DNA of 64,000 nucleotides from assembly GCA_021847835.1 (NCBI GenBank), contig JAJZPR010000002.1:1-64000 (forward strand), written 5' to 3'. Within the stretch, counting starts at the first letter, position 1, and each line of letters begins with the position of its first letter. This stretch comes from Pseudomonadota bacterium. GTDB taxonomy: Bacteria; Pseudomonadota; Gammaproteobacteria; Burkholderiales; Thiobacillaceae. Positions 18,419 through 55,466 of this stretch are shown one piece after another. A program made the translations under genes and the position numbers. The notes beneath the pieces are model-generated. The model searched no databases. It saw only the letters and a program-made list of their open reading frames with translations, and had not been told where the DNA came from.

Positions 18419-19699
<1,281 letters not shown>

Positions 19700-19717
19700 T
19701 TATGAAACCTTAAAATC

Positions 19718-20136
19718 AGCCACAGAGAACACAGAGGTCACAGAGAAACCCTTTGTATGCCATTAACCAGTTTGCGTTCGCCAAAATTGATGATCAGTCC
19801 TCGCTTTAACCTGCTTGCTCGCAGATACGACAATGTCTGGGAAACAGCGTAGTCCGGCACATTCTTCAACGATTTGATTTCAACGACGACCTCCCCCGAA
19901 ACAAGCAGATCAAGACGTTGCCCCCTGATCGTTTGTGTCTTGTAAACCATATCGACCGGAACCTGGCGTTCGAACGCTATTCTTCTCAATTCAAATTCAT
20001 GACAGAGCGCTTCTTCGTATACTGCTTCCAGCAAACCCGGGCCAAGCAGTTTATGAACCTCAATGGCCGCCGCAATGATCGATTCGGTCAGTTTATCCAA
20101 GGTTTTTACTCTGTGGCCTCTGTGTTCTCTGTGGCT
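19718..20136. mobile_element. Putative GxxExxY inverted-repeat element (419 bp)
   Basis: 19718-19745 AGCCACAGAGAACACAGAGGTCACAGAG vs reverse complement of 20109-20136 AGCCACAGAGAACACAGAGGCCACAGAG (27/28), bracketing the GxxExxY gene. Confidence 0.6.
19738..20100 (-). CDS. GxxExxY protein (putative PD-(D/E)XK nuclease-like)
   Basis: (TTG start) LDKLTESIIAAAIEVHKLLGPGLLEAVYEEALCHEFELRR...QRLDLLVSGEVVVEIKSLK; GLLEAVY motif; stop codon inside left inverted repeat. Confidence 0.85.
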   Translation of the reverse strand: MDKLTESIIAAAIEVHKLLGPGLLEAVYEEALCHEFELRRIAFERQVPVDMVYKTQTIRGQRLDLLVSGEVVVEIKSLKNVPDYAVSQTLSYLRASRLKRGLIINFGERKLVNGIQRVSL

Positions 20137-21481
20137 AGCTTTTCTTCTTTTCCGCCCTATCCAGCCCATGCAAATAATTCAGCCGTTCGGCGATCTTGCC
20201 TTCCAGTCCCCTCGGCGTGGGCTGGTACCAGTTGGGCTCGGGCATGTCTTCCGGCAAATAGGTCTCGCCCGCCGCGTAGGCATCGGGCTCGTCGTGCGCG
20301 TAGCGGTAGGCGCGGCCGTAGCCCAGTTCCTTCATCAGTTTGGTCGGTGCGTTGCGCAGATGGATCGGCACTTCGCGCGAGCCGTCTTCGTTCACAAACC
20401 GCCGGGCGTTATTGTAAGCCACATACACCGCGTTGCTCTTGGGCGCGCAGGCCAGGTACAGCACGGCCTGCGCAATGGCCAGCTCGCCTTCGGGGCTGCC
20501 CAGGCGCTCGTAGGTTTCGGCGGCGTCCAGTGCCAATCTCAGCGCCCTGGGGTCGGCGAGGCCGATGTCCTCCGTGGCCATGCGGATCACGCGCCGCGCG
20601 AGGTAAAGCGGATCGCAGCCGCCGTCGAGCATCCTGATCATCCAGTACAGCGAGGCGTCCGGGTTGGAGCCGCGCACGCTCTTGTGCAGCGCGGAAATCT
20701 GGTCGTAGAAGGCTTCGCCGCCCTTGTCGAAGCGGCGCGTGCCGCGCACGAGGACATTCGACGTGAGTTCCGGGGTGACGGCGGATTTTTCCGAGCGCGC
20801 GGCCTCGGCCAGCTGTTCGAGGTCGTTGAGGAAACGCCGCGCGTCGCCGTCGGCGTATTCGATCACCTTGTCCGCCACGCCGGGCTCGAATGCCACATCC
20901 GGCAGCGCCTCCCGTACCCGCATGAACAGGGCCTGCAGGTCCTCGGCGGTGAGCGGCTTCAGCACATAGACCTGGGCGCGCGAGAGCAGCGCGCCGACGA
21001 CTTCGAAGGAAGGGTTTTCCGTGGTCGCGCCGATGAAGGTCACCAGCCCGGATTCGACATGCGGCAGCAGCGCATCCTGCTGCGCCTTGTTGAAGCGGTG
21101 GATTTCGTCCACGAACAGGATGGTGCGGCGGCCGACGCCTTTATTTGATGCAGCGCGGTTGATCTCGGCGCGCGCCACCGCCTCGCGGATGTCCTTGACG
21201 CCGGACAGCACGGCGGAGAGCGGAATGAAATCCGCCGCCATGGCGTCGGCCATCAGCCGTGCCAGCGTGGTCTTGCCCACCCCCGGCGGCCCCCACAGGA
21301 TGAAGGAATGCAGCTTGCCCGAGTCGAAGGCCACCCTGAGCGGCTTGCCGGGGCCGATGAGGTGCGCCTGCCCGACGACCTCGTCCAGCCTCCGCGGCCG
21401 CAGGCGGTCGGCCAGCGGCTGGTAGATGGGGTCGGATTCGAACAGGTCTGCGGACACGCCAGGAAAGCTCTGCAAGGTCAA
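20135..21481 (-). CDS. rarA: Replication-associated recombination protein A (RarA/MgsA)
   Basis: [27 protein letters not shown]...[21 protein letters not shown]. Confidence 0.95.
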
Positions 21482-30643: not shown

Positions 30644-30671
30644 TGCCAAAACACTTCAAGCCACAAGAGGG

Positions 30672-30889
30672 CACAGAGAACACAGAGAAAATCCCATGCT
30701 CAATGCGCCAGGTCTTGTCAGTAGGGAATGATTTTCTGCGCTCACAGAAGTCTTGGGGGGTCCCTCTGTGAACTCTGTGAACTCTGTGAACTCTGTGAAC
30801 TCTGTGAACTCTGTGAACTCTGTGAACTCTGTGAACTCTGTGAACTCTGTGAACTCTGTGAACTCTGTGTTCTCTGTGTTCTCTGTGGT
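30672..30889. repeat. CACAGAGNN inverted-repeat unit without gene; 14 tandem nonamers on right arm (11 perfect CTCTGTGAA)
   Basis: (CACAGAGAA)x2 at 30672-30689 is a perfect 18-bp inverted match to 30870-30887; (CTCTGTGAA)x11 at 30764-30862. Confidence 0.9.
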
Positions 30890-30900
30890 CGTCTTTGGGT

Positions 30901-55376: not shown

Positions 55377-55388
55377 AGGCACATCGGA

Positions 55389-55466
55389 CACAGAAGCGGC
55401 AGAGACAACAGAGTCAAGGCGCAGATATGGAAAGGTTTCCGCTGCTTCCTCTGTTACCTCTGTGCA
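55389..55466. repeat. Degenerate CACAGAGNN-family inverted repeat, no gene inside
   Basis: CACAGAAGC GGCAGAGAC AACAGAGTC ... CTCTGTTAC CTCTGTGCA. Confidence 0.6.

Follow-up and report, generated by a model that had tools for sequence, protein, structure and literature searches.

The window, by which we mean the whole 64,000-nt stretch of DNA that was analysed, carries a small GxxExxY gene that lies between rarA and serS and is enclosed by two inverted repeats (Table 1). These repeats had been described in the initial annotation as near-perfect, and indeed the arms match at 27 of 28 positions over 28 nt; a second, independent repeat finder lengthens the inverted repeat to 31 nt, with 357 nt between the arms. 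Reading of the sequence placed the GxxExxY stop codon (19738-19740) inside the left arm and the rarA stop codon (20135-20137) at the edge of the right arm, both as previously claimed, and the TTG at 20100 that had been proposed as the start is most likely the true one. An alternative in-frame ATG at 20169 starts the longest ORF (19738-20169), in which the right arm is translated as HREHRGHR. Because translation from this ATG runs across the right arm, a spurious N-terminus would probably be introduced by automatic annotation, and HREHRGHR-like stretches of database proteins may be repeat arms translated in error. The view that rarA and serS are usually close neighbours stands within the genus and for one further genome (G019), and falls for several other family members (e.g. 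G010), in which the two genes are apart. The window contains 19 occurrences of the two-unit motif CACAGAGNNCACAGAG (≤2 mismatches) versus 0.33 expected, and the repeats are therefore not due to chance. Nothing above chance was found in searches for a rho-independent terminator or a promoter at the window element.

Table 1. Coordinates of the repeat-bounded GxxExxY gene, its neighbours and the two other elements in the window
Feature	Position	Strand	Details
serS, downstream neighbour, host gene outside the element	18419-19699	-	TIGR00414, 553 bits
Left outer end TATGAAACCTTAAAATC	19701-19717	+	Partial likeness to the ends of dispersed copies, AAAACCTCACTTCAAGC / AAAAACAGTCAGC
Left arm	19718-19748	+	AGC plus three CACAGAGNN units; holds the GxxExxY stop codon; inverted repeat 94% complementary
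GxxExxY gene, PD-(D/E)XK nuclease core	19738-20100	-	TIGR04256 match 19747-20091
Right arm	20106-20136	-	Three CACAGAGNN units plus AGC; ends at the rarA stop
rarA, upstream neighbour, host gene outside the element	20135-21481	-	MgsA_C and AAA_assoc_2 matches over cut-off
Second element, gene-less	30648-30893		Outer end AAAACACTTCAAGC 30648-30661; left arm 30662-30687; right arm 30764-30887
Third element, gene-less, decayed, unit type NCAGAGGNN	55388-55464		Arms 55388-55413 and 55442-55464

In agreement with its earlier assignment to the PD-(D/E)XK-like GxxExxY family, the encoded protein gave a full-domain match to TIGR04256 (125 bits, cut-off 35; positions 2-115 of 116) and a match to PF13366 (123 bits, cut-off 22), the sole domain found in the single ORF of the element. 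Its conserved pattern is D64, E74, K76 and Q88xxxY92 (D...ExK...QxxxY, numbered from the TTG start); across 53 sequences, E74 and K76 are invariant, and D64, Q88 and Y92 are kept in ≥90%. AlphaFold2 run on the 53-sequence alignment returned a confident minimal PD-(D/E)XK core (pLDDT 96.4), for which the nearest folds in Foldseek were Cas4, MGME1 and lambda exonuclease (E 4e-3, probability ~0.99). Motif and model together thus give the catalytic D...ExK and core fold of a PD-(D/E)XK nuclease, with no separate DNA-binding domain, and no solved-structure relatives were found by sequence. A virus origin of GxxExxY was rejected on its near absence from viral sequence, with 0 relatives in 50,697 phage records and two in IMG/VR. 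The literature searched, which left subscription journals and preprints outside, mentions TIGR04256 and PF13366 only in passing, with no link to repeats or mobility and no description of a connection between GxxExxY genes and repeats.

The original observation is confirmed as correct, but it was understated. CACAGAG-like inverted repeats had been predicted to be enriched around GxxExxY genes elsewhere. Inward-facing CRCNRAG units, at least two of them chained, flank the gene on both sides at 67 of 128 GxxExxY loci versus 0 of 2145 random same-size segments taken from these loci; when such units on one side suffice, the figures are 96 of the 128 and 69 of the 2145. These loci come from many bacterial phyla and from one Methanothrix contig; 80 of them, taken from searched genome contigs, are best matches and not a random sample. 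The proposal that the repeats form the boundaries of the gene is therefore borne out at both-sided loci well beyond the window, and units of other kinds make up the arms at many of the loci that fail the CRCNRAG test. Y1-transposase loci served as a gene-family control: of 30 from ten genomes, none had the units on both sides.

Within the genus and family, inverted arms of tandem 8-10-bp units were present at every GxxExxY gene with both flanks available, and at a gene lying at a contig end (L038) the arm is visible on one side only. The units differ from gene to gene: CACAGAGN, GAGGACA, CAGAGGNN, GGGAGGNN and CGCRGAGNN, and further CACAGATGA, CGCCAAG, CACGGGGAG and ACAGGATTT. GxxExxY has no conserved partner genes and its neighbours are varied (trpD/trpC, rarA/serS, fabD/fabG, radA, ade).

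GxxExxY genes often lie between co-oriented housekeeping genes, such as fabD-fabG (L328), ade-mannose-1-phosphate guanylyltransferase (L330), radA-FAD protein (L327), trpD-trpC (L033) and, in the window (19738-20100), rarA-serS; in the cases that were read closely, the element edges coincide with stop codons. A frameshifted GxxExxY gene between perfect 21-nt CACGGGGAG-type arms (L040, G006 C63:1034-1382) is a decaying element, and a gene within a three-arm compound (+, +, -; G242 C28:125712-126348) suggests two elements in tandem.

The genome-wide repeat search suggested in the initial annotation was productive. Across the 2.99-Mb source assembly, the exact two-unit motif matches 151 times (overlapping matches entered separately), and the reversed motif, used as a control, 0 times. 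This genome has one GxxExxY gene. Most motif sites are paired, plus with minus, into gene-less structures that usually span ~70-125 bp and lie in short gaps at gene ends. Beyond the units, the dispersed copies share 13-17 nt, with outer ends AAAACCTCACTTCAAGC at one side and AAAAACAGTCAGC at the other, and are therefore homologous copies with defined, mobile-element-like ends, not convergent hairpins. Folded as DNA, they give strong hairpins (z -5.6 to -10.4), a T-run follows one outer end, and the NN spacers of their units are free to vary while the seven-base core is kept. At the window element, positions 19701-19717 may be the counterpart of this conserved outer end, with a similarity of just 0.5-0.6 to the ends of the dispersed copies.

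Both other elements in the window are gene-less. The right arm of the second has expanded to 14 tandem CACAGAG units, and G003 has a GGGAGG-type hairpin in the orthologous gap; the unit type of the third was also found around the trpD-trpC gene of G001 (L035). Growth of a single hairpin arm to ~10-14 near-identical tandem units was seen in this second element and at G254 C1:102100-102205 (L205) and G144 C114:13046-13133, with units CACAGAGTT, CACGGAGTA and CACAGAGGT. The opposite arm, where seen, still has two or three units, and the one-arm expansion apparently arose by slippage. Another dispersed palindromic repeat, TGGATCGCC...CGCGATGACG / GTCATTGCGAG..., occupies some gaps of the same kinds (G003 C11 near 88400 and C23 near 16500; G005 rarA-serS, L161).

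Gene and repeats co-occur across genomes. Of 275 genomes sampled evenly from the class, 45 carry a GxxExxY gene and 28 are motif-rich, defined as having five or more three-unit motifs on both strands. The gene is present in 19 of the motif-rich genomes and absent from 9, compared with 26 and 221 of the others (OR 18, p 7e-11); some of the 26 genomes that have the gene without many motif copies carry other units. Four genomes (G119, G159, G161 and G270) have 43-72 motif copies and no PF13366 match over cut-off, and in the two of these inspected for it (G119 and G159) none of the paired arms leave room for a gene between them. The simple reading of motif-rich genomes without the gene is that it was lost after amplification. 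The hairpins of G119 and G159 are very regular (G119: L187-L197), and pure CACAGAG and pure CGCAGAG elements occur together in G119.

The type of repeat also matches the gene. In 9 of the 11 genomes where both are readable, the arms around the gene belong to the class of the dispersed copies (G000, i.e. the source genome, G052, G073, G121, G240, G144, G242, G254 and G306, with G121 and G240 sharing a genus); in the two mismatching genomes, G188 and G277, the arms of the gene are not of the searched motif. When unit positions 2 and 5 were mapped on the protein tree, they required 21 changes versus 27.8 and 13 versus 18.9, and 0 of 200 shuffles had as few; the units follow the GxxExxY protein tree. 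Residues T2, E3, L20 and column 99 near the C-terminus (trimmed-alignment numbering) vary with the unit sequence when kinship is left uncorrected. The strongly covarying T2 and unit position 5 (raw z 10.6) gave 2-3 usable pairs in an independent-pairs test on the tree, so that residue-unit covariation is not separable from shared ancestry and is not claimed here as contact.

Comparison between species revealed both occupied and empty sites. The empty rarA-serS junction that had been sought in relatives exists in G001, G002, G007 and G008; the junction is occupied by the window's gene in the source genome, by a gene-less GGGAGG-type hairpin in G003, G004 and G006 and by a third type in G005. 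At trpD-trpC, a GxxExxY gene is present in five species with five different unit types. The proteins encoded there share 53-75% identity, are mostly mutual nearest relatives and are under purifying selection (dN 0.20-0.43, dS >1.2). In the occupied species the trpD stop codon comes from the left edge of the element, and at the empty site, in G000, G002, G007 and G013, trpD and trpC nearly touch or overlap. Which sites are occupied thus differs between species. Neither of the two outcomes named in the initial annotation as refuting its interpretation was obtained, and that interpretation is supported. No target-site duplication was visible at trpD-trpC, rarA-serS or the nested sites described below, in comparisons made between species and not between a near-identical strain pair.

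Unit types turn over at shared positions. Twelve copies of the source genome have flanks alignable to G003, in a comparison of partly incomplete assemblies that covered 1.94 of the ~2.7 Mb of G003: at the orthologous positions, G003 has a hairpin of another type in seven cases, a relic in one, an unrelated palindromic repeat in one and nothing in three. Other-type hairpins, judged by eye, are hence found at 7 of 12 orthologous sites versus 5 of 79 other aligned gaps (p 6e-5). In addition, a compact GGGAGG-type hairpin is nested in the loop of an older, decayed hairpin at G003 C23:23445 and C20:280005, with a less clear case of such nesting at C20:100929. From the nested and replaced hairpins, new types seem to land in or beside old ones. 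Several unit types occur at once within one species, and the outer flanks of the two hairpin types differ.

We consider the best explanation, with a probability of about 0.6, to be that the unit belongs, as its gene-bearing member, to a selfish and dispersed REPIN/RAYT-like hairpin family whose dedicated protein is a PD-(D/E)XK nuclease and not an HUH transposase. The GxxExxY protein is predicted to bind and cleave the arms or hairpins, and this cleavage would drive hairpin copying or insertion, with host repair finishing the process. More specifically, the nuclease would recognise terminal inverted repeats of about three tandem 8-10-bp units (CACAGAGNN in the window) and cut at the arms or at the hairpin, after which host repair or replication would copy the hairpin into new gaps. 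The gene-bearing form would spread rarely, and short gene-less hairpins with the same arms far more often. Copies would settle in intergenic gaps, in many cases right at a stop codon; later types would preferentially land in or beside older hairpins, so that positions persist and unit types turn over. The homing-element variant of the initial proposal has no direct support.

One rival account concerns the turnover step. Resident hairpins might be rewritten in place, by genome-wide gene conversion to a new unit type as the specificity of the nuclease drifts, without insertions. One trpD-trpC gene lineage with five unit types in five species is what such conversion would leave behind, as are the different-type hairpins at 7 of 12 orthologous positions, but nested old and new hairpins show fresh insertion, several types coexist in one species and the outer flanks of the two types differ. 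We regard rewriting as unlikely, and it could coexist with the selfish-hairpin reading. Nor need the mobilising enzyme be GxxExxY: an HUH/Y1 (RAYT-like) transposase or some other enzyme could move the hairpins, with GxxExxY a passenger or a host-domesticated nuclease that has the same arms. Y1 transposases were found in all ten genomes tested, four of them hairpin-rich without GxxExxY, so another enzyme could do this, and the lengths and architecture of the hairpins are REPIN-like (PMC3116915). Against this stand the absence of two-sided units at the Y1 control loci compared with their presence at 67 of 128 GxxExxY loci, the agreement of units with the GxxExxY protein tree, and outer ends at which no GTAG/CGTC tag was noted; we think it unlikely that another enzyme is responsible.

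Less probable again is that the hairpins are host features, such as bidirectional terminators or mRNA stabilisers, that were spread by ordinary duplication, and that the nuclease is a regulatory or repair gene settled among them. The position of copies in short gaps at gene ends, their strong folds and the T-run after one outer end would suit such a role. It fits poorly with tandem, sequence-specific units in which the spacers are free and the seven-base core is kept, and with types that differ at orthologous positions, nested copies and outer ends common to the copies. Finally, GxxExxY could be a Cas4-like defence nuclease for which the repeats are self-recognition or target marks, a very improbable reading that draws on the Cas4-like fold, on a weak match to Cas4 (14 bits, E 0.01), which was the sole one among the PADLOC defence models and fell short of a defence-system call, and on the near absence of the family from phages and viral contigs. 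Against it, the gene lacks conserved partners, its neighbours differ, and it is itself bounded by the repeats.

Building on the selfish-hairpin reading, we tentatively propose, at somewhat less than even odds, a kind of mobile DNA, bacterial and possibly archaeal, that is run by a single ~120-residue PD-(D/E)XK nuclease devoid of any transposase domain. This nuclease would read arrays of 8-10-bp units and spread hairpins genome-wide, its unit specificity drifting along the protein lineage and successive types overlaying the same sites. This looks like a widespread and apparently undescribed type of element, run by an enzyme class unlike the known ones. GxxExxY is annotated in many bacterial phyla without a function, and the link to repeats provides a testable candidate substrate; it also explains a class of scattered repeats of the CACAGAG/CGCAAAG/CGCCAAG type. 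The natural range of unit types, together with the proteins that match them, can serve directly as data on how a 120-residue nuclease could read DNA. If correct, the proposal would show that a REPIN-like symbiosis, of a single-copy enzyme with a hairpin population, arose with an unrelated enzyme.

Several known systems share parts of this organisation. Cas4, lambda exonuclease and MGME1 are the nearest solved folds and have the D...ExK...QxxxY motif in common with the window protein, but it is much shorter, the E-values are weak (4e-3) and these enzymes have no known sequence specificity of the tandem-unit kind. As with MITEs and their autonomous DDE parents, short non-autonomous inverted-repeat elements share their ends with a coding copy; unlike MITEs or IS elements, the element has no DDE/DEDD transposase, its single ORF being PF13366, and no target-site duplication was seen. 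TIRYTs, which are Y1 transposase genes with long terminal inverted repeats, similarly consist of a small gene flanked by long inverted repeats, and these repeats constitute a family of moderate abundance (PMC3733652); in contrast, the TIRYT enzyme is a Y1 transposase, and a tandem-unit structure does not feature in the description used here. The closest comparison is with the RAYT/REP/REPIN system of REP-associated tyrosine transposases (PMC2817692, PMC3116915, PMC8266576). In both, a gene lies between two inverted copies of a genome-abundant repeat, many gene-less hairpin doublets occupy intergenic gaps, gene and cognate repeats co-vary, repeat abundance is tied to the presence of the gene (here with 9 exceptions) and persistence is vertical. 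However, a REP palindrome measures 20-40 bp, whereas each arm here consists of about three tandem 8-10-bp units. A single locus can also change its unit type, and no GTAG/CGTC tag was seen by eye at the conserved outer ends AAAACCTCACTTCAAGC and AAAAACAGTCAGC. Between the repeats lies a gene containing only PF13366, i.e. a PD-(D/E)XK protein, unlike the HUH/Y1 enzyme (PF01797) of RAYTs. Membership of the RAYT family therefore fails on the enzyme, and the functional analogy to REPIN/RAYT is kept: as first proposed, it fits a system that usually has one or a few genes alongside numerous hairpins without a gene, and in which the type of the repeats corresponds to that of the gene.
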